A stretch of DNA of 64,000 nucleotides from Paramarasmius palmivorus. Lineage: Eukaryota > Basidiomycota > Agaricomycetes > Agaricales > Marasmiaceae. Under the pieces are notes generated by a model. The model was not told the DNA's origin, ran no database searches, and was given only the letters and a program-made list of their open reading frames with translations. The position numbers and the translations under genes are program-made. Every line of letters starts with the position of its first letter. The first letter of the stretch is position 1. Below, piece after piece: positions 3,900 through 40,351 of the stretch. The stretch is taken from assembly GCA_037176845.1 (NCBI GenBank), contig JAYKXP010000190.1:1-64000 (forward strand). The letters run 5' to 3'.

Positions 3900-3900
3900 A

Positions 3901-13742: not shown

Positions 13743-13769
13743 TTCCATCATCCAAGGTTTGAGGGGGAG

Positions 13770-14137: not shown

Positions 14138-14841
14138 GAATATAGGTATGTCTTGTGCATGATGTTCTTTCTGATATGAGGTTGAATATGTTGACGGCGA
14201 TGTGGGTCTTGAATCATGGTATTTAGATGGGAAATTGTTGTGTGCGCGGGATGTGGAGTGTGAAGAAAAGGAAGTTGGGGATGGGGAAAAGCCTGGGACG
14301 ACTGAGGTTGGCGATCATGTTCCTATTTTTGTTCGGACACGTCAAGAGAGATGGCAAATGAACCTGTCGAAATGGTGTATCTCTACAAATCACATTCGAT
14401 CGGACCTCAGGCCTCAGACCTCAGACCACACTTCACCACACCCTGAGCGCATCTTCAATGCGCCAATGGTCGATGCTAACTTCAAGCATGTCAACGACAG
14501 GCAGTCGTAGGTCCGGGGCTAACGTCTATTCAGTGGCGATTCTCGTTCCTGTCTCGTTTACATCTGTCTTTCAACACCCCTCTAGGTGTAGGTATCATCC
14601 GCGTGCATAAGGGCCTTGTTACATAGATCCAAATACATAGTGAACAATACAAATGATATAATACAACGAGTTGAACTCGTAGAGAGCATAATCCGTGCAT
14701 CGCTATGCACTCTATAAACACCAGAGAGGAAGAACACATCCATAAATATGCAAATTAGGCCAGGAATCGCATAGGACACAAGTACCTGCAGATAGTCAGC
14801 GCGATCATCTAGAACTTGCCGAATCACTTACCAAAAAAGAA
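14138..14841. other. host sequence right of the outer Copia element
   Basis: An open plus-strand frame at 14202-14510 and small minus-strand frames are present, none resembling a known family. It may contain the other half of the sequence disrupted by the element, since the junction reads like an exon end plus GTATGT donor. Confidence 0.35.
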
Positions 14842-17001: not shown

Positions 17002-17202
17002 TATTGGCGAAGGAGGACTAGGGCTGAGGGTCTTGGTGGTGGTAGTTGTCGTGGAGTGCACGAGGCATACAACAGCTTAGATGGAATGGTCGGCGATCTC
17101 CGATGCTGTATTCTTCAAGTACAAGGAAGCGTCACTCGCCTTGCCGCGCCGTCATTGTCTTGGTATTGACCGGCAAGCCACCCGTGCTTGCCGTCCACAG
17201 TT

Positions 17203-19593: not shown

Positions 19594-20019
19594 GGTGGAG
19601 TGGTGACAACCACTGTCAGGCAGTAGGGTTCCCGTGTCTTTATATTGTGATCAGAATGATGCTAACACCCACAGCATTGAGTTATAGAAGCTATCCATAA
19701 TGCATCAATCGAAATTTACGAACCAGAACCGACTTCGATGAACCTTTCTTTCCCAGTGTCCCATCCTTGGTCGCTGTTCAACCTCTCTGTCTACGTTTTA
19801 TTCGAGGGTGATTGAAGAAGTAGTGAAGAAGTGTGAAGTAAGCAGCTGTCAGGGCCGTGGGCCCGAGAAATTCCCTTTCTATGAACCATCCAGGGAACAC
19901 TTCTCGAACTCAGCCTTTCAATTCAAAGGCATAGCTCTATACACGAGGCACGAATAATTAAGTCTGTCTAGGGGAGATTAGGTCTCATCCTGCAAGTACT
20001 TGGGTCGCACCAGACTCTT
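19594..20019. other. upstream region of the kinase gene
   Basis: No gene is seen. A TATATTG-type word lies near 19643 upstream of the kinase start, and there is otherwise unremarkable sequence up to the inverted cassette. Confidence 0.5.
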
Positions 20020-20559
20020 ACTCGCTCGACGTAGTATGTACACTTTTACTTTGAATTCGGCTTTTCGAATTTTAACCAAAACGGATAGGACAGATTAATA
20101 GTTCTCACAAGAGGGCAGTGATGCATACTACGTATACGCATCTCGGCGGAGAATGAGGGTAGCATGTTTTGGTTTTGCGGGTAGCTTGAATATGGGACAT
20201 GGTACGTTTGCTCAAGCCAATGGTTCTATCGGTGACATTCTAATCCTCGATCTGGACAGTCACATTTTTGCAACCTAGGACTCGACAGTTCTCAGTACAC
20301 AGTCAACACACGTCACGTTTGGTCTTGAAGCCCGTTTTTCATCGACGAGCCCGAGATGGAGACCACTGACTGGACTCGGGGCACGCGTACAACGCGACGC
20401 GGTATGAATTGGGTATGATACGTTTATACGCGATGGTACAAGCTTTGGGAGGTACGTGGCTGCGAATAATATACAAATTAACGATATACTTAACTAGTTT
20501 GTATAAGTTTAACAGGTGTCCGAGGAAAGCTCAATTCTACTTACTCGACGTCAGTACTA

Positions 20560-21249
20560 TCACCCAACACTCGACAGAGGAACACACACGCACCATAAAC
20601 CAACACCATGAATGTGGCCAATAACATCTCCAGTCAACCTTCCTGTTTGCAAATCGCGCAGGATAGCAGCGAGTATCGGGTCGGTAGAATGTCTTGGTGG
20701 TGGTGGTCCTGGGATCTTCAGGTTCGAGTGGGAGTGAGGGTTCTTTGGATAGATGGAAGGTGGGACTTTGGTTTGGGTATTACGATGATGATGTTGGTGA
20801 GCCACTCTATGCGTATGCCCAGCGTCTACTAATGTTTATGGGTAACGAAACGTCAGGAAACGACAATCAAGCGCGTACGATATCGATGCCTTTGGTCTCT
20901 TTCACGCGCATTGGATGTGGAGATATTGCTGAGGAGAACGATCAGTATCGAATGGTTAATTGCGGTATCGCAACGTACCTTGTAGAGGAGCCACTATGCC
21001 AATGCATATCTTCAGCTTCAAGGCCATCGACATCGGTATCGGAATCAGGATTGAAGCCGTCATCTGCAAAGCAGGATCAATTGACGGCCATGGTCCGGGT
21101 GAATGCAAGGAAAACACACCAGTCTGTGGGTCATGAACACACCGAACGGTTGTCTGAGGCGTGTTATTCAGGTTGATGTTTATCGAGATACCGTCGACAT
21201 GATGGATAGCATGACCATGAATCTGAAAGTGTTTTCCAGAGTTGAACAT
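20560..21249 (-). CDS. small gene with NLR-like N-terminal motif (arm 1 copy)
   Basis: The start is an ATG at 21249. The N terminus contains HFQIHGHAIHHVDGISI, which matches the pattern FxSxxxxxIxGxxxxxVxG also found at the start of the NLR encoded at 26521. After at least one short intron the protein has an acidic middle, a basic His/Lys-rich part and the very conserved ILAAILRDLQTGRLTGDVIG near the C terminus (20645-20590). Copies exist at 38155-38834 and 45808-46470, which supports coding status. Exon limits are uncertain, so the length (~200 residues) is approximate. The function is unknown. The shared motif suggests a partner or decoy of the NLR, as inference. Confidence 0.5.
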
Positions 21250-21689
21250 TTGGTGACTTGGGGTGGGGAAAGATTCGACGAGGGATTTGGAACATTAGCG
21301 GCGCAATTTAAGTAAACCAGGAACATCGAAAGCAAGTGAAAGGTCGAAATCCGAAAGCAGGCTACCGGTCCCATTTTAGATCATGGCCCTACAGACGCCA
21401 AGGAATATTAGAAGCAGAACAAACCAGCATGCTATCCGTTTCCTTTTATATCTTCCGACTCTGGTTCTCTGATTTATAAAGCACCAGTACTCTGAATCTC
21501 CCCTTATCCTCCTCCCAGTTTCTCTTGAATCAACCGCGGTCACACCGGTTCTCTCGAGGGACTCTCTGGGATTCTTCTCTCTCTATCTTGTGTAAGGTCA
21601 ACGTGATTCCCATCGCGCTGCCTCTACATCTTTCGTCGTTGTGGTCGTCGTCTATCGCGTTCAGGTGCCCCTGGTCTGATCGACCCCGT

Positions 21690-21845
21690 GGGGTTTTATC
21701 CAACGCTCTTCGACGCCGGGCGCCCTGTCCATTTGTCGGATGATATTGGATCTTGGATAACGTCCTTGACTCCGACGCCCTATCCATTTATCGGATGACG
21801 TTGGATGGCGTTGATGCCTGGATAACGTCGGACGCTACCTGATGG
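21690..21845. repeat. minisatellite, degenerate GGATGACGTTGGAT units (arm 1)
   Basis: Two to three imperfect units repeat around CCATTTGTCGGATGATATTG and TCCATTTATCGGATGACG, with intervening TGGATAACGTC. The inverted equivalent at 37490-37720 has about one more unit, so the repeat number differs between arms. Confidence 0.65.
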
Positions 21846-22049
21846 ATTCCGACACTGCTGGGGATGGGATGTATTCCTTGTACATGTAGTAGCATGAAAT
21901 GAAATATATTCAATTCAACAACATATCATACATCGTGTTTGGCCTACTCTTGAGCACTTGAGCGTTTGCCCGTCGCCGGATTCCATGCCCCAACTACTGT
22001 CCCCAATCTCTCTACCCCCACACTCTATGGTATCGAGTCTTCTCTGCGA

Positions 22050-22760
22050 TGACACCACTACACTGCGTGGTGTGATGTTAGGGTGATAACGATCCCCCTA
22101 GACTCACCATCCGTTCCTACGAGTGCTGGTGCTCAAAGGCAGCCTGAAAGTCGCGTTATCGTTAGAACTCTGAACAAAACAGGAATGAGACGCAAAACGT
22201 ACCAAGATCTCGATCTTTCCTCAGTTGTACATGTATCGTATGCCTTTCAACGTTAATAGAGGAGGATATAGGCTAGGCGGAGGAGGAGAAGGAGATGATG
22301 GCGGCGGCGGTGGTGGTAAGAAGGAAAGAAGGGGACGTGGGAGACCAGTTTTCTGAGAGTCGGTTTGACCCTGTACTCCGGAGTTGCGCCACAGTCCCAA
22401 AAAATACTTAACCATCATGCTGTCCAACTCGTATCGACTCTGGAAGAACATCAGGTGGATGTCGGCGGACGTTAGATTTTACCCGATTCCTGGACCACAT
22501 GGTCTCAGATAGCATTAGATACATCTCAACCAATTCAAGTCCCCAAGTCGCGCTCGGAGTACCCGCGCTGACCCACACCTGGCGTTTCTGAGCGCCCTTG
22601 ACGCGTGACAGAGTAGTGAGAAGCTGTTCTCAAGCTCTCAAGGCTGAACAAGCATTCCTCTGATGAGGAATCTGAACAGGCTGGTACCCTAAACAAGGCG
22701 GAAAGTGTGATCAATACCAATGTCAATGTAGGGAATACTCAATAGACTAACCTGGGAGGA
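22050..22760 (+). other. possible gene, disrupted in arm 1 (Gly/Ser-rich region)
   Basis: It is homologous to the 208-codon frame at 36654-37280. Here an insertion (GCGTGGTG near 22070) puts a stop after a few codons of the equivalent start, and several other indels break the frame. It encodes a Gly-rich run followed by KKERRGR. Whether this was ever a gene is unclear. Confidence 0.3.
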
Positions 22761-23341
22761 GCGAATGGGACTGCTATTTGGAGGAGGCGCCCTTTTGTTG
22801 GTCGTCGCGGAAAAGTACTGTAACGATTTGTCATGTACTGTTCCAATACTGTTCTCAGCCTTCCGCCACGACGTCACACCTCTGTTGCTGTTTCTCCTAC
22901 ATATACAACTCTTCAAAAGACCTAGAGTGCTCAAGGGTTCAACGCGTCGAGGGTTTTGGGAGTGGGGTTGGTTGGGGGGTGTCGGCAGTGAGTCGTCTCT
23001 AAACATGTCTTTCGTCCAATCTCATCTTGTATCATCATTTTCTAGCTTTCAAAACGATACCCATCCCACTCATTTCGAACCCACCTTTTGCGAAACACGA
23101 AACTCAAGCTTCAAGTATGAAGAACAAAACATCGGAACGGTTCCACTTTCAGAACACTCGTATGCATAACTATCGTATGAACGCACACCGGCCAGTGATT
23201 GACTCCGCTACCGATACAATAGATGGACGACAAACGCCATAGGGATTCAGAAATGAAGCTTGAAGCTTGAAGCTGTGATCGAAATGTGACTGCGACAGGA
23301 GCACGACAGACTCCTTTTAGTCTACTCTTCCTACTCCCACC

Positions 23342-24041
23342 ATGTCAAGAAAACTCCAGCAAAACTCGATTCTATCACAGCAACCAGGTTGGTTCAGCCA
23401 GCGCATGTTCGCTCTCTTCCCTTTCACTGTGGTTTTCCAATACCTGCTCGTATTCTCCGAAGGCGTCATTTTCCTCGCTGGCTCTGCAGTTCCATTTCAG
23501 TTAGTCTGGGTACCCCTAATATCTACTCTCGTCCTTCTCGGCTGCGCACTGTTCTTGCTTGTCCACTATCCGCCTTCAAAGATACGATTCGCAATTGGGA
23601 TGGAAATTCATTTTGTCTCTGTGAGCATCATCGTTGGTGAGTCTACTGTGTCTATCAAATGTTAAACGTTCTGACTTTTTATCAGCATCCAAATGGGTAT
23701 ATCTCTTCGAATTCACGACACCGACATTCGCCATTGTCGTTGCGTCTACCCTCGTCTTGTTGCATCTCATATTCCCTTCATTGTATTTGGTGTGTAATGG
23801 AGAACACGGCTTTGACTTTGGGATCACTCCGATAGGCAGCCTAATTTCAACTGTCTTGCTCGCCTTGGCGGGGGTCTTGCTAGCCTTGGCGAGGTTCATG
23901 GAGGAGGTCAACGATCTTTTCATGGGGCGATGGATGAGCAGTGAGATTGGAGGTGAAGCGACTTCAAGCGTGTTGGAAGAAGATCCGGGTCATCTACCTA
24001 TACATGTTGCTAAACAAGTTTGTTCTAGTCGCTTGGTATGA
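23342..24041 (+). CDS. multi-pass membrane protein, 216 aa (arm 1 copy)
   Basis: Exons 23342-23636 and 23686-24041 are joined over a 49-bp GT-AG intron (phase 1), giving 216 residues. The N-terminal amphipathic leader SRKLQQNSILSQQPGW is followed by about five hydrophobic segments: FPFTVVFQYLLVF, LVWVPLISTLVLLGCALFLL, IHFVSVSIIVG, TFAIVVASTLVLLHLIF and LISTVLLALAGVLLALARF. The tail is cytosolic-looking and charged, ending CSSRLV. The copy in arm 2 (35280-35973) is also intact, with a 12-bp in-frame deletion. I recognise no named family. It is followed 150 bp downstream by a second membrane-protein gene, and the pair is duplicated together, so the two products may act together. Confidence 0.72.
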
Positions 24042-24191
24042 TGCTTTCGAAATGTCCACCATCGTAGAAACATGGAATGAACGTGTTGTATTATCATCTA
24101 CCTTGATTTTTGTTTGAATATAATACATTGAAATCAGAACGATGGTCGAGCGTTGACGCGCCCATTCTCAGCTCAAACCACTACCGCCGTC

Positions 24192-24759
24192 ATGCCTGGT
24201 ACTACGCTACAACACCTCGAATCGCTCAATCCACCCTACCCAGCAACAATGGATATATTTACTTTCCGGTCAATTCTCCTAATTACCGCCATTCTTCAAG
24301 TTGCTCTCGTCGTCGTACAAGCCAACCAAGACCAAGACCAAGATCCTCAACCAGTCTGGGGATTCCAATTCTACTACACCAAGCTACCATTCATCTACTC
24401 GTCAATTTTATTCGAAATCGCTCTACACATCGTCTTCCTCTATCCTCTATCCGACGCGCTCGTTATTTGGACCCATATCCATATGCTTCCATTGAGTCTC
24501 ATCTTCGGTGTGTAGCTCTAGCTCCTTTCATCGCAATTCCTCTTGACTCTCAATGCCAGCGATGAACGCACCTCCGTCAATTGAACTCACAGCAACTTTC
24601 TCAAACACAACAAACATCATTTTCAGAACCCTTGTTTACCTGTCCACACTCAATTTCTTGTTCTTCTTGGCCCCCCCATGCCCAAGGAGTAGACTGAAAT
24701 TCGGCGGGACGTTTCTTATTGTTGTAGTGCTTGGTTATGTTATCAGAGATATTGGGTGA
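24192..24759 (+). CDS. membrane protein, 171 aa (arm 1 copy)
   Basis: Exons 24192-24507 and 24560-24759, with a 52-bp phase-1 intron, give 171 residues starting MPGTTLQHLESLNPP. Hydrophobic segments are SILLITAILQVALVVVQA, LPFIYSSILFEIALHIVFLY, MLPLSLIFG and, after the splice, IIFRTLVYLSTLNFLFFL and GGTFLIVVVLGYVIR. The family is unknown to me. The equivalent in arm 2 (34537-35120) is intact at 172 residues, differing by in-frame indels. A degenerate duplicate of its first exon lies just downstream. Confidence 0.7.
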
Positions 24760-24814
24760 TGGGTACGTCGTCTTGGGTGTTTTGCTGTTTGTGGATCGCT
24801 GAATAGGACTTAGG

Positions 24815-25060
24815 CTACGATGCTTATTCTGCTACCACCGTCATGCCCACCAAGTCAACTCGTCCTTCAAGCTCACTCGAATCGCCCGCATCTGCTCTAT
24901 CAAGAAACGTTCGCTGGCAACACTCCTAATCACCGCCGTCTTGTCGTCCTACAAGCCTCAAAAGCCTTTGCCTCAAGATTCCACGACTGGATGTCCTTGT
25001 TTTACTCGTTACTTCTAGGCGGATACCCATCATGCCCCATGCCCGCATCTCGATGAACTT
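24815..25060 (+). pseudogene. degenerate partial duplicate of the 24192 membrane gene
   Basis: The start CTACCACCGTCATGCCCACC, the ACTCGAATCGC word and CCTAATCACCGCCGTCTTG echo the first exon of the 24192 gene, but the frame is broken. The same block recurs at 34185-34480 and 47240-47530. Confidence 0.5.
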
Positions 25061-26520
25061 TAAAAATGGGCTAAGAGGCGAATGTATGCCCACCCGGATA
25101 CCAACTTATGCTATCTTGGTGAGCATTTCTTATCTCCCTTTTCCTTTTTTCAGTGCATCTTATTCATGTTGTAGACGACAAAGAATCCCGGTAGCTATTA
25201 AGACTACACATACACACGACCTCCCTGGCTATCTGGTACTCTCGACTGGTGTAGAGTATCCTAACGCAACAATAGCCGTCTTCCGACCTCTCGTCTTCGT
25301 TTTATGACTTCGTTTTGGTAATTCCTGGGCCAAGTTTGGCTAGCGAGTGGGACGATGAGTGAGCGGCCCATGGCCAATGTATAGCTCCTCAAACAAACCA
25401 GTCGAGGCGGAATGGGAGAAGGGGGGAGAGAGAGGAAACAGGAGGAAGAGGACTTGGAGGAATGTCGACAGCAACATGACACTCACAAGGACGGGGACGA
25501 AGGAGGTGAATATACTTAGAGTCAGAACCCGAGATATGACATCCATCACGCAACTCTGAAGACGCGATGATGCAGGGCTTTGTCACGCTGGAACTATACT
25601 AGTGGAGTGCCAAAGAGTCCCCCAGGCCCCGGCAGAGAAAGTGAGGGATAAAGTCGAGGGGTAGAGACAGAATATCTCTGACTCGGAGTCTTCGTCCAGT
25701 AAAAGTATCTGTGCGTAGAGAGAGGATTGTCCTTGTACTTCTCGTACTTAGACTTGGATTGCAATATTCATGGTCGCCAGTCAAAAGCCGTGCGTTCTAT
25801 TGTCGGCAATTTTTATTTTCCGCTGGACAGCGGTCGGACCTCCTGGGTTGGCCTTGTATTTGCTGTAAGAAATGGGCAGTCATGCATGAGCGCTCGAACA
25901 GATCACCTGCAATCCACGTGGAATTAGCGGAGTTAGAAAATTGGCCCAGTCAACCCACCCTTTCTCCAGTCCTTCATCTCTTTTGTGATCACTTTGTCGT
26001 GGTGATTAGGATGTTATTTCTGAATGGTTCATGGTGAGTAACTTACTTTTCGTTTTGAGGTCATTCACCCTTCCCCGTCTTCCATGACGATGATGATGAT
26101 GATGACAACAGCTTCGAGATAGACGCGCTCTGCGGGAAGCTCAGAGCCGCAACTATCTTTCTTTGTCTGCTTTCGCCAAATTAAAACACTTCTCTTGTCA
26201 AAGCTTTGAACACTTTGTGATTCATTGGTTCAGCTTGCTGCGACTGTCGTGCAGATTGTTCCTTCACTATTGTTCTACAAAACTTAGTTGACGGAGACGG
26301 CCCGCATCAGACTGAACAGTTGCTATGCACACCAATCAGGAGCACATTTCTGTCAACCGTAGCAACACTGCCCAGTGCCAAATCACCAGACGCTTCTTCC
26401 ACGAGGGTAACGTTCACAATGGTTTTGCTTCTCAATCTGCAGACTAACGACCCAAACTTTCAGGTTCGACCAGGTAATGCTGTTGCATAGCCTGCTTCTG
26501 GCTAGACTGCGAGCTAGAAT
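25061..26520. other. inter-arm region upstream of the NLR, no convincing gene
   Basis: Short overlapping frames on both strands, a (GAT)n microsatellite near 26087-26106 and possible promoter sequence for the gene starting at 26521. Nothing resembles a known protein. Confidence 0.45.
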
Positions 26521-29500
26521 ATGGCCTTTGATTCTTGCAATAACATCGCAATAGAGGGAGGGACGTTCAATGCAGTAGAGGGAAATCAAATTAGCACAAC
26601 AAACTACTATGAACAGTACAACGGTAAGTCCTATTTTCTTGCTTTCATCTGGGTTGTCACTCAGTAGTACTCCTGCAGGCCGCCAGAATCCCTTCGATAT
26701 CCTATCCCATTCTGCATCGTTGAACGCAACCCACACCTCAGAACAACGATTTCCTCCTCCCAAATGTCATCCAGAGACCCGAGAAGAGATTCTCAAGACA
26801 CTCAGCACATGGATACTAGCAAAAAATCGCTCTAGGATCATGTGGGTGTACGGCACCGTAGGCGTTGGGAAGTCGGCCATAGCTCAAACCCTCTGCGAGA
26901 AATTCGCCGATAGCTGTTTGGCTGCAAGCTTCTTTTTCTCGCGGACGGATCCGTCCCGAAATCATATTGATCGCTTTGTGGCGACCATTGCCCACCAGCT
27001 CGCCACTGCGAAGTCATTCTTCGTTCGTCATTGGGCGCGAAGAGCAATCCGAGCAGCAATTAAACACGACCAGGATATCCTTCGTCACTCCGCAATTGAA
27101 TCAACTTTTAGAACCCTCGTTCTGGGTCCGTACACGACTATCCCTCGTATATTCCAAGTCTATACGCCCAATGTGCTCATTGTGGATGGACTCGACGAAT
27201 GTCTTCACATTCCATCGCAGGAGAGGCTGTTAACACTCCTATGGACTGCCACTATGTCACGTCATCCTTGCCCATTTGCTTTGGTCATATTCAGTAGACC
27301 GGAGCCCCATATCACAGACTTTTTCAATCGCGTCTCCCGAGAGAGCTTGGCATTCGACCGTTTGCGCATCGGCGATTCATTGGAAACAGATCGCGACATC
27401 GAAACCTTCCTGCTCTCTCGTTTTCGCGAAATCCGTGCCAAACACCACCGGGCCATGCAAAACGTTCCTGATTCATGGCCAGGTCCAGCTGTCATATCAC
27501 AGCTGATTCAGAGGGCATGTGGTCAATTTGTGTACGCCACAACTGTGATTAAATACATTGACACCCGCGACGCGTTGCCAACGAAACGCTTGGATGACAT
27601 ACTCAGTGCGAGGCCGGCAAAACCATCCCCATACGCGGAACTAGACTTGCTGTACCGGCAGATCCTTCGCTCTTGCCACGACATAACGGCGGTGCTCCAG
27701 ATTTTGCAGCTTGTGCTCGGTAGCAGTTCGGACGTCCCTGCAAACGAGCTGTGGTTGATAGCCCAGATCCTTGAGGTGGACGAAGCGATGATCCCGGTAT
27801 TAATGATTGGATTACATTCCGTGCTCCAGGTACCGAGCGATTCCAGGGAGCGGATTGTGATTTTTCACGCATCGTTTTCCGAATTTCTTCGGGATCCTGA
27901 ACGCTCTCAGGAGTTTTTCGTGCCACCTCTGCCCGACGGTGTAAGAATGAAGGCGTACTTCATCTCGAAGTTCGAGAGCTTGCGTTCTCGCGGAATGTAC
28001 CGGTTACCTCAGTCGTGGCCTGGGAAGGTTGCTCTCGAATCTTGCGTGCAGCGGGCTGGTGGGCAAATTCTGTATGCGGACATCCTTTTGGATTACCTCG
28101 AGGGCGATCCTGATGGTCGGTTGGATGTGGTATTGTCCCTGCAACCTCGACAAATATCTCCAACCGCCGAATTGGACCTGCTCTGTCAGGAGATACTTTG
28201 GGAATGTGGAGATGTCGCCCTCCGTATTCTGCAGCTGGTACTTGCTTCAAGTCCAGAATTACCGACTAATACACCCTGGTCAGTCGCGCAGGTTCTGGAC
28301 ATAGATTACAATGCAGTCACAGGTTATCTGGCCAAGTTGCGCCCCATTGTACTTATACCCTCGACAGGCACCAATGATCCCATACTTATCCGCCATTCAT
28401 GCATCTCTGACTTCCTACTATCTCCAGAGCGCGCGCAACAGTTCTATATTACCCCTCTTAACAAGGGTCAGAATTTAGCGGTTCATCTCGAATCTATGAT
28501 AGCTAGTGTTCGTGCAGAACACAGGTTACCGCAGTCATGGCCCGGACGATCAGCTTTCCAATCTATCCTGCGAAAATCAGGAGGGCACCATGTATATGTG
28601 GATACGCTTACTCGATACCTCGCCGCTGAGCCTTTCCCACGTTTAACAGACGTCGTCGATTCTGAACTTGACAAGCATGAAATATCCCCCGAATTCGAGC
28701 TCTATACACTCTATCGCCTTGTTTTGGATAGCTGCCACACTTCTCATGGCGAGATCCGTCAGCTACTTTGGATAATTCGCGAATGCAGCCCATGGATCTC
28801 TATAACAGTGTTATCCCGCGCCCTGGAGCTGCATATAACATACGTTTCACGTATTTTGTATGAATTGGGGCCAATTTGCCAGGTTGTAGATAATAGCGGT
28901 GGGATGGTATCCTTCCGGCACCCTTCCTTTTCTGATTTCCTACTGGATGTGGACCATGCGGGACCTTACGCCATACCACTTTCTCCAGACGAAACAGTCA
29001 GGGCATCCCTTTGTTATCACCTAGAGAAGCACTGGCCGGGCAACACTGCAGTCGGCAGGCTTGTTCAAATGGCGTGTGGTCAGGAAATATATGTTCAAAC
29101 ACTCATCCAGTACATTGAGACCAAAACCTATCATACCCAAGCCTTGCTCGAGATCGTGAACGAAGGGCGTAGAAATTCCGGTCAGAGACCAACGAATCCA
29201 AATTACCACTTGGATCGTCTATACCACCGCATACTTCGCACTGGTTTCGCGTCGAGGAATCGTCACATAATGCTGCAGATCTTTCTAATGGCGATAAAAT
29301 ATGACCGGGAGAAGTCTCCTTGGATTCTGGATTGCATCAGAAAATATCTTCGCGAAAATGATGGCCCATTTCTCAACACTGCATGCGAATCACTTCGTTC
29401 GATACTTGATTTCTCGCTCGACCCAAAGAGGCCATACCCAATACACTTTCACCATTCTTCGTTTCCGGAGTTCCTACTCAATGAGGAGCGCTCGAAGGAG

Positions 29501-29590
29501 TTCTATGTTGGACCGGGATCATTAGTGAACAAGGATGTCAAGCGACTTATACGGGCGTATCGCACCCTCCCTATAATTCAACGACGTTAG
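26521..29590 (+). CDS. NACHT NTPase (NLR-like) with four tandem post-NACHT modules, 1004 aa
   Basis: Exon 1 26521-26623, a 55-bp intron, and exon 2 26679-29590 give 1004 residues with exact phase. Residues 1-34 carry the motif IAIEGGTFNAVEG. The NACHT domain has Walker A GTVGVGKS (93-100), a FFFSRTD sensor-like segment, Walker B VLIVDGLDEC (about 200-209) and the FSRPEPHI motif. From residue ~300 to the end the protein consists of four modules that each begin with a (S/H)WPG motif (W at about 301, 481, 655, 820). Each continues through GQxxYxxTxxxYI, then LYRxIL, and closes with HxSFSDFLL and ERSxxFY. Known fungal NLRs usually end in WD40, ankyrin or TPR repeats; none are seen. A role in non-self recognition or cell death is inferred from family knowledge. 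It lies between the inverted arms. Confidence 0.88.
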
Positions 29591-30038
29591 TATTCAAAAT
29601 GCTTTCATATGTGGACTTGGCCATTGACGAGGTTCTTGACATTATAGATGAACACATCGGTTTCGGATACATGTACATCGATGACTCGGAACAGTCGAAG
29701 GATTGCTAGCTGTAGAATACATGTATATATCAATAGTAACCAGTAATTATGCAAAGTTGTTGAATATGAACTATGAATTGTGAATCAGGGTTTTCTGTGG
29801 ACTTTGACATTCATTAACGTTCATTATTCAAGATTCAAGTCCAGGCAAGACGACTCGATATTCGGATGGACTTGGCCTTTCTTGGTATTATGGATAAACA
29901 ACATACATGTACATCAGGGACTCATCGAAGGATTGCTAGCCGTAGAATCTCGCTGTCACCAGAGCTATGAATCTGAATCAATGCTTTCTGTACGTTTTAA
30001 GATTCAATATTCAATATCCAAGTCCGCGCACCACTCTA
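29591..30038. other. NLR 3' flank with an imperfect tandem duplication
   Basis: Two blocks at about 29680-29840 and 29905-30025 share CGAAGGATTGCTAGC, GTAGAAT and TCAAGTCC-type words about 230 bp apart. No gene is seen. Confidence 0.45.
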
Positions 30039-30970
<932 letters not shown>

Positions 30971-31689
30971 GGACTCGGTTTGCGCGTGCTGACCGTATCG
31001 TATATGTGAGTGTCTCCAGTTCCGTCCGGGTATACGAGGGAAGACGATGAGGATGACGGATGGGTGGAGGTAAGCCGTTGTGAAAACGGTATGGTGGAGG
31101 TGGAACTATGTGGAATAGACTTGGGCTGAAGAAGATGAATGAGGAAAGGCGGGATCCAACGGATTGGTTTGGGTGTCCATAGGCAGCATGTTGACGTTCT
31201 AGTATTCTGGTACTTGAGGTGAGAGTAAATTAACACTCCACAAGGTTCAAGAACGTACTGAAAGTATTTCGTTACTACCGTTGTCGGCGCCAGAGTATTC
31301 CGAAACCGCCTTAGGAGAAATAGTAAGAATATTTATTGACTTGAGGGTTTTCAACCACTCTGCGGTCTTGTACGTTCCGGTAGATGCGGTAGATGAGCAC
31401 TGTGAAGACAAGGGTCAGATTGTAAAGACATATTGAGTGCCGGAGGGACATACCGATACCGAGAGTACCAACCCGGCCTCGTCATCCGCCTTGCGCCAGT
31501 GTCCCAATCCTGATTCCTCTGGGGGCCTGTTGCCAGGAATTAGAGTAAAATAATCCCCTAGACATGTAGATGTCTTGGTATTTGGATTAGACAGTCTTTT
31601 GTAGGCCTGTCGCGGACATTGTAGTAACTCGATCTGTAAAAGACATTTAATCATCAAACCGAGTCTCTAAGGCTAAACGACCTAACGGT
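30971..31689. other. region upstream of the GH47 remnant, no clear gene
   Basis: Low-complexity Ser/Thr-coding stretches on the minus strand may be further eroded mannosidase sequence, but no motif can be read. Confidence 0.4.
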
Positions 31690-32580
31690 TTGGTCCTTGA
31701 CAGAGTTCTCAAGGCTGAACAAAGCATTTCTCGGATGAGGAACAGGCTGGTACCCTGAACAAAGCGGGAAGTGAGATCAACCCGGGGAATACATAGTCAA
31801 TAGGCTAACCTGGGAGGAGCGACTGGGACCATTACTGGGCTTGTTGTCAGAAGCGTTGAAGGCGAAACTTGGTCGCCGCGGAAAAAGTAAGTAATGTGCC
31901 GATTTGTAACGATCGCCTAGCCGTTCTCAGCCTTTCACCACGACGCCCCGACGCCCCGACGCCCCGACGCCCCGACGTTCAGACTTCTATGACCACACCT
32001 CTGTTACTGTTTTCTCCTACACATACAGCCTACGCAACCATTCAAGCACCTCTTCACCAGAGAAAGTCCCCGAGAGTTCAAGGATTCCGCAACGAAACGC
32101 CGCAAATGTAATCCCGAGTAGTAGTCTGCGTTGGACGATGGTTTAAGGGCTTTGTGGGGGTTGGTTGAGGGGTATTGGGTATGCGTAGTACGTTCCCGCC
32201 AGGCTGTGTGGTATTAGTGAGTCGTCTCTAAACAAGTCTTTCGTCTAACCTCACCTTGTATTCCGACAGGGCTTGCACAGCTCTACTTGGCCTTCATCCA
32301 CCCCCATCCGACGCGAAATCGTTCTTTGTGCGAAACACAAGGAATGGTCCATTTCCAGGCCAACTTTTACCCGGAACATCCATCATACAAACCAGCAGAG
32401 CATCTACCAATGGCGACATCTCCCCGGACCTCTACCGCGACGGATAGCTGTTACCTTCTCGTCCCAACGATAAAGGAGAAAGAGAGCAAAGCCATGCTCG
32501 CTCTCTTCCTTTTCACAGTACTTTGCTCGTATTCCGTCGAAGACCGGAATAGGCAAAGCTCTGAACAGATGCCGTAGGTT
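31690..32580 (+). repeat. partial, degenerate copy of the 5-kb cassette
   Basis: The words AGGCTGAACAAAGCATT, GAACAGGCTGGTACCCTG and CAATAGGCTAACCTGGGAGG match 22645-22765 in arm 1, in the same orientation. Sequence near 32495-32545 (CTCGCTCTCTTCCTTTTCAC) matches the first exon of the membrane-protein gene at 23342. The intervening parts are diverged, and the membrane gene is reduced to a short remnant. Confidence 0.65.
31942..31977 (+). repeat. 8-bp tandem repeat (ACGCCCCG)x4
   Basis: Four perfect consecutive units inside the partial cassette copy. Arms 1 and 2 have a single ACGACGT-type word at the equivalent place, so this is a local expansion. Confidence 0.85.
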
Positions 32581-32929
32581 CAATGGGACTCAAGCCTTGG
32601 CATGCGGCCCGCTTTCTTTGTCAACTTTGTGGGTAGAGGTATGCTATCTCCAAGCATAGTCAGCTATTTCATCTCAAACAACCCAAAGAACAAGTCGACC
32701 TCAACGCCACGCCGTCGCTGGCTTTGAAGTTTATTGGTACCCTTTACCCCCTGGCAAACACTCACCGGCACCTTCCGTACAAGCAGGGCATTTCGTGGTG
32801 AAACAGCCAGCGACGACAGAAGGGGCACCGTAGATGTATCTCGGATTCCGAGCCATCCCTGTGCACAACTCGAATTGCGTACGGCTGTGTTCATGGGTAG
32901 AAACGACACCTCGCACACCCCCGCCGTCA

Positions 32930-32938
32930 TATATAAAA
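32930..32938 (+). promoter_or_regulatory. TATA box of the metallo-hydrolase gene
   Basis: TATATAAAA lies 35 bp upstream of the ATG at 32973, a plausible core promoter with a very short leader. Confidence 0.55.
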
Positions 32939-32972
32939 CCCCAAAAAACGACACCCAGAGACTCAACAAACC

Positions 32973-33875
32973 ATGAGCCTCCCAACACCTACCCCCAACC
33001 AACCCTACTGCACCATCTCCGCTCTCCAAGCCGGATTCATGGAACTCAAACTCGACATGCTCCTAGACAACGCCGCCCCAGGGTCAACCCTCGACGCTCC
33101 CTCCCTCTCTTTCCTCATCCAACATCCTTCCAACGACAACAACACCAAGATGCTAGTCGATCTGGGTCTCCGCAAAGATTGGGAAAACTACACCCCATTC
33201 GACGTTTCGATTTGTCAGAATTGGAACGTACGTGTTCCCCAAGACGTTGTTGAATCGTTACGCAACGGTGGATTGGAGCCTTCCCAGATCGACTATATCT
33301 GCTTGACGCATGTTCATTTTGATCATGTTTGTAATCCGAGGTTATTTCCTGAAAGCACGTTCCTAGTCGGAGCAAATGCGCAAAGGTTATTCCAACCAGG
33401 ATACCCAGCAGACCCCAACTCGTCGTTCGCGAGTGATCTGTTGCCGGTGGATAGGACAGTGTTTCTTGACCCGCATGCACAAGGCCAGGGGTGGGGGAAA
33501 GTAGGCCCGTTCGAGAGAACGTTGGATTTCTATGGAGATGGGAGTTTGTTCATCGTCGACGCGCCGGGTCATTTACCTGGACATATTAATGTCCTTGTAC
33601 GCACTTCCTCGGATGGAGATTGGATACTTCTCGCAGGGGATAGCGCACATCATTGGAATATTATTACGGGTGAATCGCATGTTGCTCATGGGGTGGCTGG
33701 GAGCCCGTTTCCGGGAGGGTGTGTGAATGCGGATAGGGAGGAGGCGGAGGTGCATTTGAGGTGTATTAGGAGGTTTTTGGAGGAGGAGAGGACGAAGGTG
33801 ATCATTGGGCATGATGAACCTTGGTTTAGGGAGAATAAGGATACGGCGTTTTGGCCGGGGAAGATCGAAGCGTAG
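32973..33875 (+). CDS. metallo-beta-lactamase-fold hydrolase (lactonase-like), 300 aa
   Basis: A single-exon 300-residue frame in a good start context. The metal-binding motif is HVHFDH (113-118). The later ligands fit DAPGHLPGH (H204), AGDSAHH (D223) and IIGHDEPWF (H280), so all classical MBL positions are filled. The arrangement and length resemble the N-acyl-homoserine-lactonase/AttM-type group of fungal and bacterial MBL proteins; the substrate is not determinable. No signal peptide is seen, so it is probably cytosolic. Broken copies lie at 47640-47771, 48560-48990 and about 53753-53850, which makes this the only intact member of a locally duplicated gene. It sits just inside arm 2 of the inverted cassette. 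Confidence 0.88.
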   Translation: MSLPTPTPNQPYCTISALQAGFMELKLDMLLDNAAPGSTLDAPSLSFLIQHPSNDNNTKMLVDLGLRKDWENYTPFDVSICQNWNVRVPQDVVESLRNGGLEPSQIDYICLTHVHFDHVCNPRLFPESTFLVGANAQRLFQPGYPADPNSSFASDLLPVDRTVFLDPHAQGQGWGKVGPFERTLDFYGDGSLFIVDAPGHLPGHINVLVRTSSDGDWILLAGDSAHHWNIITGESHVAHGVAGSPFPGGCVNADREEAEVHLRCIRRFLEEERTKVIIGHDEPWFRENKDTAFWPGKIEA

Positions 33876-34536
33876 GGTGCGGGGTGTTGTGTCGGCGAAT
33901 TATAATTATACACGGTATCGTACATTGCATATAATATATATAGACCAGGCGTTAATCTATGAATCATTATAATAATCCCAGAAAAAGTACATTCACCACG
34001 CCCTGTGAAAGTACCAAGCACCGCTTCCGCCTAAAAACGACTCGGATACACCAATCTCCTTGTTCTCGTTCTTGCGTGAGCGTGACCAGCAAAGGCGAGT
34101 AAATCTTGAAGTAGCTGCGTACTACAGGCTTGAAGCTTGAAGTGTCCTTAAAAGTCGTTTTCAGAGCTATATATGATCAAGTTCAGTCAAGGGGTAATTG
34201 ATAGCGAGGACAAGGGGTACATACCAGCGATGAGACTGAGCGCCAACGTATGAGTGCGCAGTCGAAAATGGGGGTATACGATGACAGGGCGTCTAGGAGG
34301 AACGAGCAAAACAAGGGGAACCAATCGTGTGATCTTGAGGCAAGAGCTTTTGAGATTCCAGGACGGCGGTGATTGCTAGCGAATCCAGCGAACGTTTCTT
34401 GATAGGTAAATGCGGCGCATTCGAGTGAGCTTGAAGGACGAGTTGGTGGGCATGACGGTGGTAGCAGAATAAGCATCGTAGCCTAAGGCCTATTCAGCGA
34501 GCCACAAACAGCAAAACACCCAAGACGACGTACCCA

Positions 34537-35120
34537 TCACCCAATATCTCTGATAACATAACCAAGCACTACAACAATAAGAAACGTCCCGCCGAATTTC
34601 AGTCTACGTGCTTGAAGCCATGGGTAATCAAAGAAGAATAAGTGATGGAGTGTGGCTAGGTAAACGAGGGTTCTGAGAATGAATCTTAATGTGTTTTCCA
34701 GAGTTGAGAAAGTTGATGTTGGTTCGATTACGATTGATGGAGGTGCGTTCATCGCTGGCGGTGCGGTTGAAGAGTCAAGCTTAAGGCCTATCGCGAGGAA
34801 CGGAGCTAGAGCTACACACCGAAAATAAGACTCAGCGATATCATATGGATATGTGTCCAAATAATGAGCGCGTTGGATAGAGGATAGAGGAAGACAATAT
34901 GTAGAGCGATTTCGAATAGAATCGACGAGCAGATGAATGGTAGCTTGGTGTGGAATTTCCAACATAGTTGAGGGTCTTGGTCTTGGTTGGCTTGTACGAC
35001 GACGAGAGCAACTTGAAGAATGGCGGTAATTGGGAGAATTGACCGGAAAGTGAAGATGACCATTGTTGCTGGGTAGGGTGGATTGAGCGATTTGAGGTGT
35101 TGTAGCGTAGTATCAGGCAT
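34537..35120 (-). CDS. membrane protein, 172 aa (arm 2 copy)
   Basis: Exons 35120-34820 and 34754-34537 (65-bp intron, phase 1) give 172 residues starting MPDTTLQHLKSLNPP. It is a paralog of 24192-24759 with the same exon plan. Compared with arm 1 it has lost five codons in the QDQDQDPQ region of exon 1 and gained six codons in exon 2 (around STFSTLENTLRF), all in frame. Hydrophobic segments are preserved. The function is unknown. Confidence 0.7.
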
Positions 35121-35279
35121 GTCGGTGGTGGTGGTTTGAGCTGAGAATGGGCGCGTCAACGCTCGACCATCGTTCTGATTTCAATGTCGTATATTCAAAC
35201 AGATACCAAGGTAATAATACAACACGTTCATTCTACGTTCGAAAGCTAAAAACCGATTCCAAATGCGCCAGATACAGTA

Positions 35280-35973
35280 TCACACCAAACGACTAGAACA
35301 AACTTGTTTAGCAACATGTACAGGTAGATGACCCAGATCTTCTTCCAACACGCTTGGGGTCGCTTCACCTCCAATCTCATTGCTCATCCATCGCCCCCTG
35401 AAAAGATCGTTGACCTCCTCCATGAACCTCGCCAAGGCTAGCAAGACCCCCGCCAAGGCGAGCAAGACAGTTGAAATTAGGCTGCCTATCGGGGTGATCC
35501 CAAAATCAAAGCCGTGTTCTCCATTACACACCAAATACAATGAAGGGAATATGAGATGCAACAAGACGAGAGTAGACAGCGCGACGATTGCGAATGTCGG
35601 TGTCGTGGATACCCATTTGAGTGCTGATAACAAGTTGGAACGTGAAAAACACGATAGACACAGTAGACTAAGACTCACCAACAATGATGCTCACACAGAC
35701 AAAATGAATTTCCATCCCAATTGCGAATCGTATCTTTGAAGGTGGATAGTGGACAAGCAAGAACAGTGCGCAGCCGAGAAGGACGAGAGTAGATATTAGG
35801 GGTACCCAGACTAACTGCAATGGGACTGCAGGGCCAGTGAGGAAAATGACGCCTTCGGAGAATACGAGCAGGTATTGGAAAACCGCAGTGAAAGGGAAGA
35901 GAGCGATCATGAGTTGGTTGAACCAACCTGGTTGCTGTGATAGAATCGAGTTTTGCTGGAGTTTCCCTGACAT
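35280..35973 (-). CDS. multi-pass membrane protein, 212 aa (arm 2 copy)
   Basis: Exons 35973-35679 and 35623-35280 (55-bp intron) give 212 residues starting MSGKLQQNSILSQQ. It differs from the arm 1 copy by a four-residue in-frame deletion at the start of exon 2 (WVSTTPTF versus WVYLFEFTTPTF) and scattered replacements, several in the first hydrophobic segment. All hydrophobic segments remain. Confidence 0.72.
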
Positions 35974-36653
35974 GGTGGGAGTAGGAAGAGTAGACTATGT
36001 AAAAGGAGTCTGTCGTGCTCCTGTCGCAGTAACATTTCGATCACAGCTTCATTTCTGAATCTCTATGGCGTTTGTCGTCCATCTATTGTATCGGTAGCGG
36101 AGTCAATCACTGGCCGGTGTGCGTTCATACGATGGCTATGCGTACGAGTGTTCTGAAAGTGAAACCATTCCGATGTTTTCTTCTTCATACTTGAAGCTTG
36201 AGATTCGTGTTTCGCAAAAATGAGTGGGAGGGGTATCGTTTCGAAAGCTAGAAAATGCTGATACAAGATGAGATTGGGCGAAAGACATGTTTAGAGACGA
36301 CTCACTACCGACACCCCTCAACCAACCCCACTCCCAAAACCCTCGACGCGTTGAATCCTTGAGCACTCTAGGTCCTTTTGAAGAGTTGAGAAACAGTAGC
36401 AGAGAAGTCTGAACGTCAGGGCGTCGTGGTGAAAGGCTGAGAACAGTACATGACAAATCGTTACAGTACTTTTCCGCGACGACCAACATGAAGTTACAAA
36501 AGGGCCTACAACACCAGATAGCAGTCCCAGTCGCTCCTCCAAGGTTAGCCTATTGACTATTCCCTACATTGACATTGGCATTGATCACGCTTTCCGCCTC
36601 AGTGTTCAGATTCCTCATCAAAAGAATACTTCGTTCAGCCTCTCGCTACACCG

Positions 36654-37280
36654 TTAAGGACCAAACCTCAACATTTTCGAGTTTGAGCACAATGAGCCCT
36701 CCAACGAGGGCCCAAGGGAAGGTACTTGGGTGCCCGTAAATCCGGGTCTACTATACTCGACACCGGCCACTCTGCACGATGATGGGCGCTGCGCAGAACG
36801 TGAACGACTATCTTCAAAACTCTGCTGCAGCGAGTGCGAGCTTGACTTGGGGACTTGAATTGGTTGAGATGTATCCAATGCTATCTGAGACCATGAGGTC
36901 CAAGAATCAGGTAAAATCTGACGTCCATCAACATTCACCCTCAGAACAGCTTTTGGGTTGTGGCGCAGCTCACTGTCAGAGTCAAACTGACTCTCAGAGA
37001 GCTGTATCCCACGTCCCCTTCTTTCCTTCTTACTACCACTACCGCTGCCGCCATCATCTCCTCCTCCGCCGTCGTCTAATCTATATCTTTTATCCACGCT
37101 GAAGGACATACGATACATGTTCTGAATCGAAGATACACCGAGAACTTGGTACTTGCGTCCCATTACTGTTTTGCTCAGAGTTCTAACGACAACGCAACTT
37201 TCAGGCTGCCTTTGACTCGCAAGAACGTATGGTGAGTCTAGGGGGATTGTTATCACCCTAACATAGTGTAGTGGTGTCAT
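36654..37280 (-). CDS. hypothetical Gly/Ser-rich frame (arm 2)
   Basis: A 208-codon open frame with MTPLHYVRVITIPLDSP, a Gly/Asp-rich run and KKERRGR. The equivalent frame in arm 1 is broken, and no family is recognised. It could be a real exon or a chance frame. Confidence 0.3.
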   Translation of the reverse strand: MTPLHYVRVITIPLDSPYVLASQRQPESCVVVRTLSKTVMGRKYQVLGVSSIQNMYRMSFSVDKRYRLDDGGGGDDGGSGSGSKKERRGRGIQLSESQFDSDSELRHNPKAVLRVNVDGRQILPDSWTSWSQIALDTSQPIQVPKSSSHSLQQSFEDSRSRSAQRPSSCRVAGVEYSRPGFTGTQVPSLGPSLEGSLCSNSKMLRFGP

Positions 37281-37489
37281 CGCAGAGAAGACTCGTTATC
37301 ATAGAGAGTGAGAATAGAGAGTCTGGGGGCACTGTTGTTGATTGCGACATGCGATTCCACGACGGGCGAACGCTCAAGTAGGCCAAACACGATGTATGAT
37401 ATGTTGTTGAATTGAATATATTTCATTTTTACGCTACTACATGTACAAGAAAGATATCCCATCCCCAGCAATGTCAGAATCTATCAAGT

Positions 37490-37720
37490 AGCGTCCGACG
37501 TTATCCAGGCATCAACACTATCCAATGTCATCCGATAAATGGATAGGGCATCGGATGGCGTCGGATAACCCCCATTCAAGAACGTCCGACATAATATGCC
37601 ATCCGCGTCGGATAGTGTCCCATTCAAGGACGTTATCCAAGGACCAACGCCATCCAATGTCACCCGACAAGTGGACAGTGCGTCGAATAGCGTTAGATAA
37701 AACCCCATGGGGTCGATCAG
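37490..37720. repeat. minisatellite, about three imperfect ~75-bp units (arm 2)
   Basis: Repeating words are CCAATGTCATCCGATAAATG, CGTTATCCA and GCGTCGGATA; inverted relative to 21690-21845. Confidence 0.7.
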
Positions 37721-38154
37721 ACCTGGGGCACCTGAACGCGACAGACGACAACCACGACGACGAGAAATGTGGAGGCGGCGTGATGGGAATCACGTTGACC
37801 TCACACGAGATAGAGAGAGAGAGAGAAGAATCTCAGAGTCCCTCGAGAGAACCGGTGTGACTACGGTTGGTTCAAGGGAGACTGGGGGCATAGGAAGAGT
37901 ATGGGCGAGTGGTTTTATACGAAAAGACCTGTGTCTGTAGATATAAAAGGAGATAGGTATCATGCTGTATCGCCTGCTTCTGATATTCCTTGGCATCTGC
38001 AGGGCGATGATGGTGTTCCAAAATGGGACCAGTAGCCTGCTTTCGGATTTCGACCTTTCGGCTTGCGCTTGCATTCGATGTTCCTGGTTAACTTAAATTG
38101 TACCGCTAATGTTCCAAATCCCTCATCGAATCTTCCCCCGTCCCAAGCCACTGA

Positions 38155-38834
38155 ATGTTCAACTCTGGAAAACACTTCCAGGTTCATGGTCATGCTATCC
38201 ATCATGTCAATGGTATCTCGATAAACATCAACCTGAACAACACACCTCGGACAACCGTTCGGTGTGTTCATGACCCCCAGACCGGTGTGTTTTCCTTGCG
38301 GACACCTAGACCATGACCCGTCAATTGATCATTTTGAAGATGATGAAGGCCTCAGTGGCGATACGGATAGCGACGACCAAGCTGAAGATCTGCGTTGGCA
38401 TACTAATAGTGACTCATCTACAGGGTACGTTGCGGTACCACGATTCACCATTCGATACTGACCAACCCCCTCAGCAATATATCCACGTCCGCATACACGT
38501 CCAATGCGCGTCCAAAACATCGATATCGTACGTGCTTGATTGTCGTCCCCTGACATCTCGTTAATCATCAGCGTTAGTAGACGCTGGGCATACGCATAGA
38601 GTGGCTCACCGTCATCGTCATAATACCAAAACCAAAATCAAAACCAAACGTTCCATCTATCCAAAGAACCCTCACTCCCACTTCCACTCGAACTTGAAGA
38701 TCCCAGGACCACAACCACCAGTACCACCACCAAGACACTCTGCGGACCCGATACTTGCTGCTATCCTGCGCGATTTACAAACGGGAAGGCTGACTGGAGA
38801 TGTTATTGGCCGTATTCATGGCGTTGGTTTATAG
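38155..38834 (+). CDS. small gene with NLR-like N-terminal motif (arm 2 copy)
   Basis: ATG at 38155 followed by HFQVHGHAIHHVNGISI, then a probable short intron and an acidic stretch (EDDEGLSGDTDSDDQAED). A donor lies near 38424, and the basic C-terminal part ends ILRDLQTGRLTGDVIG and TAG at 38832-38834. Splicing is inferred from the copy at 45808-46470, where the acidic and basic parts share one long frame. The function is unknown. Confidence 0.5.
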
Positions 38835-39405
38835 TGCGCCTGTTCCTCTGTCGAGTATTGGGCGATAGCACTGACGTTGAGTAAGTAGAGTCGGACGATC
38901 ATTTGGGTTTTCCTCGGATACCTGTTAAACTGATACAAACTAGTTAGCATATCATTAATTTGTATATTATTCGTAGCCACGTACCTCTGGACGATCGTGT
39001 ATAAGCATATTATACCCAATTCATACCACATCGCGTTGTACGCGTGCCCCGAGTCCAGTCAGTGGTCTCCATCCAGGACTGGTCGATGAAAAACGGGCTT
39101 CGAAACCACCAAAACCAAACGTGACGTGTGCTGACTGTGTACCAAGAACTGTCGAGTCCTAGGTTGCAAAACTGTGACTGTCCAAATCGAACATTAGAAT
39201 GTCACCGATAAAACCATTGGCTTGAGCAAACGTACCATGCTACCCGCGAAACCAAAATCTGAATCCCTCATTCTCCGCCGAGATGCGTAGTATGCGTCAC
39301 TGCCCTCTTAAGAGAGCTGTTAATCTGTTCTATCGTTTTGGTTAAAATTCGAAAAGCCGAATTCAAAGTAAAAGCGTACATACTATGTCGAGCGGGTAAG
39401 AGTTT

Positions 39406-40351
39406 TCAGTGCTGGTTTGATTCATTTCTTCAGCATATGCGAGCTGCTTGCAAGATGAGGCTTGAAGCTTGAGGGATAGTGCCAGGGTTTATATCTAGCA
39501 ACAGGCGGGATGGAAAGCCTCAAGGCAAGTTGATTCTAAGTCCCACGCCCTCCAAGCCTATGCCGTGATGCCGGGGGTCAAATTTCAAAATTTCAAGTCC
39601 CGAAAGAAGATGCATAGACGTCAAGGAGCGCGGGCCCTCAAATTTGCCTCACAACAACATATCGTCGCCAATAGATGCGTCTACATAGCAATGGTCGTCC
39701 CTGAATTCAAGACAGGACGAATGATTACAGCGCTTGTAGAGTTTTCAAATTCCTCTACCATCTCCGGAAAGGAAAGCGTCATTGACCCCGAAACACCGTG
39801 CACCATCCCAACTGGCAACCACCTGCGACGACCATCGACATCGCCTTTCTGCAGCTCACCGAGCCCCGCAAAAGCCAGAATCCTTTCAAGTCGCACAAGA
39901 CTAAAACTAATATGTCTTGGATGGTTCAAATATGAAGCATAGCGGGAGGCGCACAAGTGTTGCGATCCCGACTGCCGGGGCGGGTTGTTTTGTTCGCAAT
40001 GGGGCAAAAGCTGATAACTATTCTGTACTGCCACGCGTGTGAAACGGCATACACATCCAAGTGAGTCTCTCACAGCACATATAATCCTAACTTGATTGCA
40101 AGCCTCCATCGAGGCGCGTCATGCAATGGGCCCAGCATCAGTTCCGTACCATCTTTCATCGTTTTCTCTCTGCATGGGTCCAGCATTTCCTCGAATCAAT
40201 AAGCGCGGGCAATGTTCTTCGGCATCTCCTCTTTTCTAGCCCACTTTTTGTTTTGCTGTTGGTTTATCGAATGAAAAAGAAAGCTTCAAAATGGTACGAT
40301 GGTATCCTTGTTTTGATCTCGCTCGAACTGACAATCAGAAAGCTTGCATAG
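39406..40351. other. region outside arm 2, no convincing gene
   Basis: Open frames on both strands (39565-39942 plus, 39681-40109 minus, 40121-40351 plus) overlap and match nothing I know. The upstream exon(s) of the gene beginning at 40352 should lie at the right end. Confidence 0.4.

Follow-up and report, generated by a model that had tools for sequence, protein, structure and literature searches.

Positions 20014-39403 of a 64,000-nucleotide stretch from the genome of Paramarasmius palmivorus (Agaricales, Marasmiaceae) hold an inverted duplication whose two gene-bearing arms enclose about 9 kb of other DNA, including an intact gene for a NACHT-domain NLR. The stretch, referred to here as the window, comprises bases 1-64000 of contig JAYKXP010000190.1 (C190; 80,890 bp) in assembly GCA_037176845.1 (68.3 Mb, 393 contigs), to which all other contigs named below (C14, C66 and so on) also belong. 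The fungus, as Marasmius palmivorus, is mentioned on cacao, oil palm and coconut palm in a paper in which mitogenomes were built from Illumina reads (PMC8581569). A second version of the locus lies on contig C14, where the flank, inverted arms and a metallo-beta-lactamase-fold hydrolase (MBL) recur and the NLR does not; the MBL gene points the same way in both versions, and the four arm copies change partners along their length. We consider it probable that these are alternative haplotypes of a structurally variable, repeat-built locus with exchange between arms and presence or absence of the NLR.

Two diverged inverted arms

Self-comparison of the window returned one collinear inverted pair, 20014-25021 against 39403-34290 (BLAST E = 0, far beyond chance), in agreement with an earlier note on this DNA that had placed collinear inverted arms at 20020-25060 and 34180-39405. 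The left arm (WL, 20014-25021) has an outer half at 20014-22560 and an inner half at about 22700-25021; the right arm (WR, 34290-39403), its inverted copy, has an outer half at 36951-39403 and an inner half at 34290-36600. Alignment of the arms gave 4164 matches and 614 mismatches, or 87.1% identity over 4778 aligned bases, together with 61 gap events covering 566 gapped columns. The longest identical run was 106 bp, and seven runs reached at least 50 bp. When the alignment was extended slightly into the flank, 448 transitions and 283 transversions were counted. The identity of 87.1%, the 61 indels and the intact reading frames rule out that one sequence was assembled twice, so that an assembly duplication, which the earlier note had named as one outcome that would undo its proposal, was rejected for the arms. 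The arms are an old inverted segmental duplication. A DNA self-match at 45807-46811 revealed a third, partial and older copy of the outer arm, oriented like the right arm. Just outside the right arm, 39755-40024 is a short dispersed repeat found in at least 21 further places on other contigs at 74-86% identity.

Read from the left, the space between the arms holds an NLR module at 25627-31182, followed by a dispersed repeat at 31184-31580 and then the MBL unit at 31588-34285. Pfam matches bore out the earlier description of about 9 kb holding an NLR, a metallo-hydrolase and a mannosidase remnant.

A second version of the locus without the NLR

The right side of the locus, 36951-64000, is common to C14 in reverse orientation. 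C14 spans 867,147 bp, of which bases 1-100000 were compared, and C190 36951-67308 aligned with C14 31706-1319 at 97.1% as a mosaic of identity: 44210-50209 and 52198-62197 carry no difference, amounting to 16 of 18 kb in the shared right flank, and identity is lower elsewhere. At 40259-42241 and to the right of about 63 kb, the differences between C190 and C14 are mostly short, and C14 is without open frames that C190 retains; the frames at 40.3-42.6 kb that are broken in C14 are retained by C66 too. Because short indels break C14 frames that C190 keeps (as does C66 for C14:26469-28421), the divergence in these two places would, at least largely, reflect consensus error in C14. A biological origin for the divergence of C14:26469-28421 and of the first 6 kb of that contig was rejected on the same ground. 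The stretches C14:1-6500 and 26469-28421, with their many short indels, are apparently unpolished parts of the public assembly.

The two C14 arms, C1 (29274-34141) and C2 (48088-53529), are likewise inverted. The duplication on C14 extends outward to the flank gene (26645-28612 with 54118-56123, 80%) and inward to the block beside the MBL gene (34602-35702 with pieces of 45281-47822, 79-85%). Between C1 and C2 lie the MBL unit and, between the near arm and that unit, about 8-9 kb of other DNA, whose open frames, judged from their translations, resemble fragments of an oxoprolinase/hydantoinase. The NLR module had no match in C14:1-100000, and no C14 match was listed for it in the whole-genome search, the listings of which are lower bounds throughout. 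The earlier note had suggested a polymorphic locus; the second version, with shared flank, inverted arms and MBL but no NLR, makes this likely within the one assembly at hand.

The pairing of arms changes along their length

We aligned all four arms and identified 232 ungapped sites that split two against two. These fell into pattern I (WR with C1, WL with C2) at 112 sites, pattern II (WL with C1, WR with C2) at 69 and pattern III (arms paired within a version) at 51, the last indicating that the arms are mostly not homogenised. In the outer half (columns 1000-2400) the I/II/III counts were 69/1/1, and in the inner half (columns 4400-5700) 3/49/8. The single best breakpoint between patterns I and II gave a chi-square of 97.4, a value reached in 0 of 5000 permutations; because sites are handled as exchangeable in this test, it establishes that pairing varies along the arm and is silent on the cause. 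In the left arm, the stretch where partners change from pattern I to pattern II corresponds to 22050-23680 (columns 2400-4400).

As an alignment-free check, we counted 16-mers present in exactly two arms. Over arm bins 0.17-0.42, WR-C1 shared 496, WL-C2 169, WL-C1 54, C1-C2 47, WL-WR 26 and WR-C2 25; in the last quarter, the counts were 215 for WR-C2, 158 for WL-WR, 146 for WL-C1, 93 for C1-C2, 40 for WR-C1 and 35 for WL-C2. Judged by such counts, the partner switch holds, with more sharing within the window in the inner part than the two-against-two sites imply. The change of partners between the outer and inner halves points to exchange between arms, as the earlier note had anticipated in proposing that they recombine. 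The change could stem from conversion tracts, from two crossovers (a flip, then a flip back) or from misjoins affecting both arms.

The MBL unit keeps its orientation

Ten markers were compared with C14, and their orientation was judged relative to the shared flank. Five matched best in flank orientation: the flank gene, the WR outer half, the inner junction (91%), the MBL gene (93%) and the block upstream of MBL, which matched at 91% over 576 and 206 bases in the same orientation against 82% over 830 bases in the opposite one (34941-35702). The WR inner half had its best match in the opposite orientation, at 90% in arm C2. Score and identity disagreed for three markers. For WL outer, an opposite-orientation match of 1763 bases at 82% stood against same-orientation matches of 1151 bases at 87% and 1082 bases at 82%. 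For WL inner, the same orientation gave 2371 bases at 86% and the opposite one 1571 bases at 89%. For 31588-31953, the opposite orientation gave 353 bases at 80% and the same one 270 bases at 81%. The tenth marker, the NLR module, had no C14 match in either orientation.

Since MBL points the same way in C190 and C14, the only intact gene common to both middles is not inverted; in the two versions that could be examined, MBL and the inner junction stand alike to the flank, with no sign of a reversed middle. A simple inversion of the middle between versions was rejected, because MBL, the junction and the better copy of the upstream block all keep their orientation. When 20000-39960 was scanned against Pfam in six frames, with matches taken up to E 0.1, no recombinase, integrase or transposase was listed, although intron-split domains could escape such scans; an Rfam scan returned no matches. 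The earlier idea that recombination between arms would invert the NLR segment stands in its first part, exchange between arms, and finds no support from these two versions in its second, inversion. With MBL constant, arms 87.1% identical and no recombinase domain in the scans, the description of the locus as switchable was not upheld.

Interpretation and alternative explanations

In the explanation we favour, an old inverted segmental duplication, each arm with an outer gene and the genes TM1 and TM2 described below, encloses the MBL unit. In the window version, the NLR module with its mannosidase remnant lies between the MBL unit and the left arm; in the C14 version, 8-9 kb of other DNA takes its place, between the near arm and the MBL unit. 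The arms would have exchanged sequence by homologous recombination, via conversion tracts or two crossovers, which gave the inner halves new partners and left the MBL unit oriented as before. The arms, the gene content, the C14 version lacking the NLR, the constant orientation of the MBL unit and the partner change are direct observations; we infer that the two contigs carry alternative haplotypes of a single locus and that the NLR was gained in the window version rather than lost on C14. Speaking for alleles are the common flank, the pair of arms in either version, the total of four near-full copies of the arm genes and the hints of redundant contig pairs elsewhere (C203 with C15).

Several observations weigh against this explanation. 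All evidence comes from one assembly, and the partner change requires at least two events. The site patterns are mixed in columns 0-1000 (I/II/III 18/9/9) and 2400-4400 (22/10/33), and in the inner quarter the 16-mers shared by WL and WR (158) are about as many as those shared by WL and C1 (146) and fewer than those shared by WR and C2 (215). The window sequence left of 20014 has no match in the part of C14 that lies past the second arm of that contig. Polymerase second-subunit genes occur as one copy each at three loci, and C14:80001-88000 has no second copy in the assembly, so that two haplotypes at the window locus would be an exception; a Ku-domain search, made as a further ploidy check, gave one weak match and spoke for neither side. 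Contig C66 matches C190 at 40307-42573 (96.2%), 67000-68800 (93%) and 69075-74000 (99%), and matches C14 across the first of these at 88.8%, a figure lowered by the C14 errors. The 3222 bases to the left on C66 contain no arm and match C155 and C47 at 88-90%; as C66 matches without an arm, the locus may exist in more than two versions, or C66 may be a paralogue.

Paralogy of C190 and C14 themselves, as two loci derived from a recent duplication of the right flank, is a reading we hold to be improbable, though deserving of serious attention. It would account for a flank near-identical over 18 kb beside MBL copies with a synonymous divergence (dS) of 0.248, for the absence of a second haplotype from the two genome samples elsewhere (the polymerase loci and C14:80001-88000), and for the existence of C66 as a third related contig. 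Conversely, the unpolished appearance of C14:26469-28421 and of the first 6 kb, set against C190, fits what double assembly of the same DNA would yield, and redundant collinear contigs are suggested elsewhere: C203 and C15 gave six paired matches, with equal spacing of 13,508 bases between two and equal scores in four of the six, a pattern that would fit collinear redundant contigs outside the window locus. We think it unlikely that either contig was wrongly joined within the arms, creating the partner change or the second version, even though C14 ends inside the shared flank and has low-quality stretches and C190 is short, with four pieces of its left 36 kb having no long match above 90% in the assembly. 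There are four distinct arm sequences, with TM1 frames intact in the three that were spliced; WR/C1 similarity shifts not at a single point but repeatedly over the length of the arm; and arms of 5 kb at 87% identity should resolve, given long reads.

A switch in which recombination between the arms repeatedly inverts the middle would explain the partner change as the trace of one flip followed by a reverse flip at different crossover points. The inverted arms, the reciprocal look of the change, the opposite best match of the WR inner half and a cluster of 20 pattern III sites in one 200-column tract (columns 2800-3000), which shows exchange within a version too, speak for it. We nevertheless regard such a switch as quite unlikely: MBL is oriented alike in the two versions, the second version lacks the NLR, the scans listed no recombinase domain, and arms at 87.1% with a longest identical run of 106 bp contrast with the homogenised 97.6% of the yeast arms discussed below (PMC9731477). 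More speculative, and in our estimate very unlikely, is a slow reversible orientation switch at a balanced NLR presence/absence locus: a flip through the arms, undone at other crossover points, would have given the inner arm halves their new partners, and the two nuclei of a dikaryon would carry deeply diverged versions, one holding the NLR and the other lacking it, that the inverted structure keeps apart. That each arm is a transposon copy is barely credible, despite two inverted copies of similar length. The whole-assembly search for TM1-TM2 gave six matches, of which four were near-full, forming one inverted pair on C190 and another on C14, and the other two measured 39 and 31 bp. No inverted repeats of at least 14 bases were found at the arm ends, no transposase domain was listed in the scans, and the C14 duplication runs past both arm ends, which are therefore not fixed. 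An origin of the arms as a DNA transposon was rejected for want of terminal inverted repeats, fixed ends and dispersed copies.

Relation to known systems

The closest precedent found is the flip/flop region of Saccharomyces cerevisiae chromosome XIV. Its 24-kb middle lies between two inverted repeats of 4-5 kb, each carrying two genes; the repeats share 97.6% identity, are homogenised within strains, and the middle occurs in either orientation (PMC9731477). The window locus resembles it in its inverted gene-bearing arms, its gene-bearing middle (9 kb here) and its signs of arm exchange. It differs in that its arms, at 87.1%, are mostly not homogenised, the two versions showed no opposite orientation of the middle, and their middles hold different genes. 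Two of the four flip/flop features tested were present (inverted repeats and arm exchange); the other two, near-identical arms and, in the two versions that could be examined, both orientations, were not seen. We did not class the locus as flip/flop, because homogenised arms and two orientations, which characterise the yeast region, were not seen, although the arms exchange sequence in a like manner.

A survey of Sordariales describes NACHT NLR numbers that vary among lineages and NLRs that are often clustered (PMC12258605). The window gene shares the variable occurrence; in contrast to that survey, it is a basidiomycete NLR belonging to a dispersed module and lying inside an inverted duplication. 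Heterokaryon-incompatibility loci of Aspergillus fumigatus have a narrow divergent core, and their incompatibility is demonstrated by crosses and expression tests, alongside population data (PMC11138114). The window locus likewise sets a strongly diverged core beside an undiverged flank, whereas it is known from two assembled versions with large structural differences.

Should the two contigs prove allelic, a single strain would harbour deeply diverged structural forms of the locus, one with an NLR and one lacking it, next to a near-identical flank; presence or absence of a basidiomycete NLR, and any link to recognition, would become testable by crossing; and sequence exchange would be on record for inverted duplications only 87% alike. 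Should they instead be paralogues or the product of a misjoin, the region is an ordinary duplicated one.

The NLR module and its relatives

The NLR gene lies on the forward strand at 26609-29590, within an open reading frame at 26579-29590, and encodes 993 aa from this ATG with no internal stop (annotated as VNI00_017790, 972 aa). The NPHP3_N (PF24883, E 3.6e-21) and NACHT (PF05729, E 4.6e-7) matches both exceeded the cut-offs. No Pfam domain was matched in the approximately 58 residues from the first Met to the NPHP3_N match, where an N-terminal effector domain might lie. Behind NACHT, direct alignment resolved four related units of 165-186 aa, with each of the six pairwise scores exceeding the highest value obtained in 200 shuffles; BLASTP of the NLR against itself showed no repeats. 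No ANK, TPR or WD40 repeat was matched at E 0.01, and a winged-helix match (PF25521) in the first unit fell below the cut-off. An involvement in non-self recognition may be proposed for this gene solely from its membership of the NLR family.

The module, on the forward strand, recurs in pieces on C88, C13, C364 and C234, and its NLR part only on C48 and C111, the whole-genome search giving 75-87% identity for the NLR on these six contigs. A long open frame of 991-1184 aa is present in four of the six relatives (C88, C13, C364 and C48), a span suggesting that unit number may vary. The C234 relative is split into frames of 595 and 416 aa, and the piece of C111 examined has no open frame above 155 aa. 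Left of the locus, 14882-17078 belongs to a family with at least 27 further long genome matches, many of them on C111, C88, C48 and C234, contigs that also hold NLR relatives.

The mannosidase remnant, on the reverse strand at 30087-30334, represents the C-terminal end only of a GH47 alpha-mannosidase (PF01532): 30087-30179 matches profile positions 425-455 of 455 (E 2e-11, over the cut-off), and 30215-30334 matches positions 385-432 (E 0.00055, below the cut-off). As the same stretch recurs beside the NLR relatives on C88, C13, C364 and C234 at 77-82%, the remnant travels with the NLR and is not particular to the window locus. The dispersed repeat at 31184-31580, at the right edge of the module, also occurs on C21, C144, C18 and C103 at 68-74%.

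Genes of the arms and of the MBL unit

In keeping with the earlier statement that the arms carry gene sets, an outer-arm gene, TM1 and TM2 were found. The outer-arm gene is a partial model on the reverse strand, an open frame at 20956-21294 holding the start MFNSGKHFQIHG; its WR counterpart is on the forward strand, and weaker relatives occur on C15 and C203. TM1 lies in WL on the forward strand at 23342-24041 (exons 23342-23636 and 23686-24041; 216 aa, five hydrophobic segments) and in WR on the reverse strand at 35280-35973, where it encodes 212 aa as spliced here and is annotated, with a differing 3' end, as VNI00_017793 (304 aa). TM2, spliced in WL only, lies on the forward strand at 24192-24759 (exons 24192-24507 and 24560-24759; 171 aa, five hydrophobic segments); hydrophobic segments of both genes were counted by the Kyte-Doolittle scale. 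Among 5.8 billion proteins searched, TM1 had two relatives at E 0.001 or better, both from Paramarasmius palmivorus. The TM1 frame is intact in all three copies spliced (WL, WR and C2), and the comparison of nonsynonymous with synonymous divergence (dN/dS) between arms that the earlier note had proposed gave 0.41, 0.28 and 0.26 for the three pairs. The fourth copy, in C1, was missed by the splice-donor pattern used and was left out of dN/dS; the annotated P0122 on C14 resembles it.

The MBL unit, comprising upstream block, gene and inner junction on the forward strand, is present in pieces at C14 43759-47852 in the same orientation to the shared flank. The gene (32973-33875, forward strand) is intact and encodes 300 aa with a Lactamase_B match at E 1e-12. 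The C14 copy keeps its frame over 296 aa, with dN 0.013 and dS 0.248 against the window copy. MBL is a common Agaricomycete metallo-hydrolase: 327 proteins matched it at E 0.001 or better, and the top match outside this species is 62% identical. Decayed relatives of 32973-33875 lie right of the locus, one at 48697-48953 by DNA match and a second within 53757-54314 seen in the translation of an open reading frame only.

Flanking sequence

In the right flank, three related open frames of 488-509 aa (49160-50629, 55951-57417 and 59535-61064) are 76-79% identical in DNA; an F-box-like domain was found in the first, the one that was scanned for it. Proline-rich short frames occur at 54.2-55.0 and 58.0-58.7 kb, and C66 holds further copies, at 74-79%, of the 54.2-55.4 kb stretch. 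In the left flank, 3898-14141 contains several copies, 89-99.7% identical, of stretches that adjoin a copia-type gag domain, and is nested or tandem retroelement DNA.

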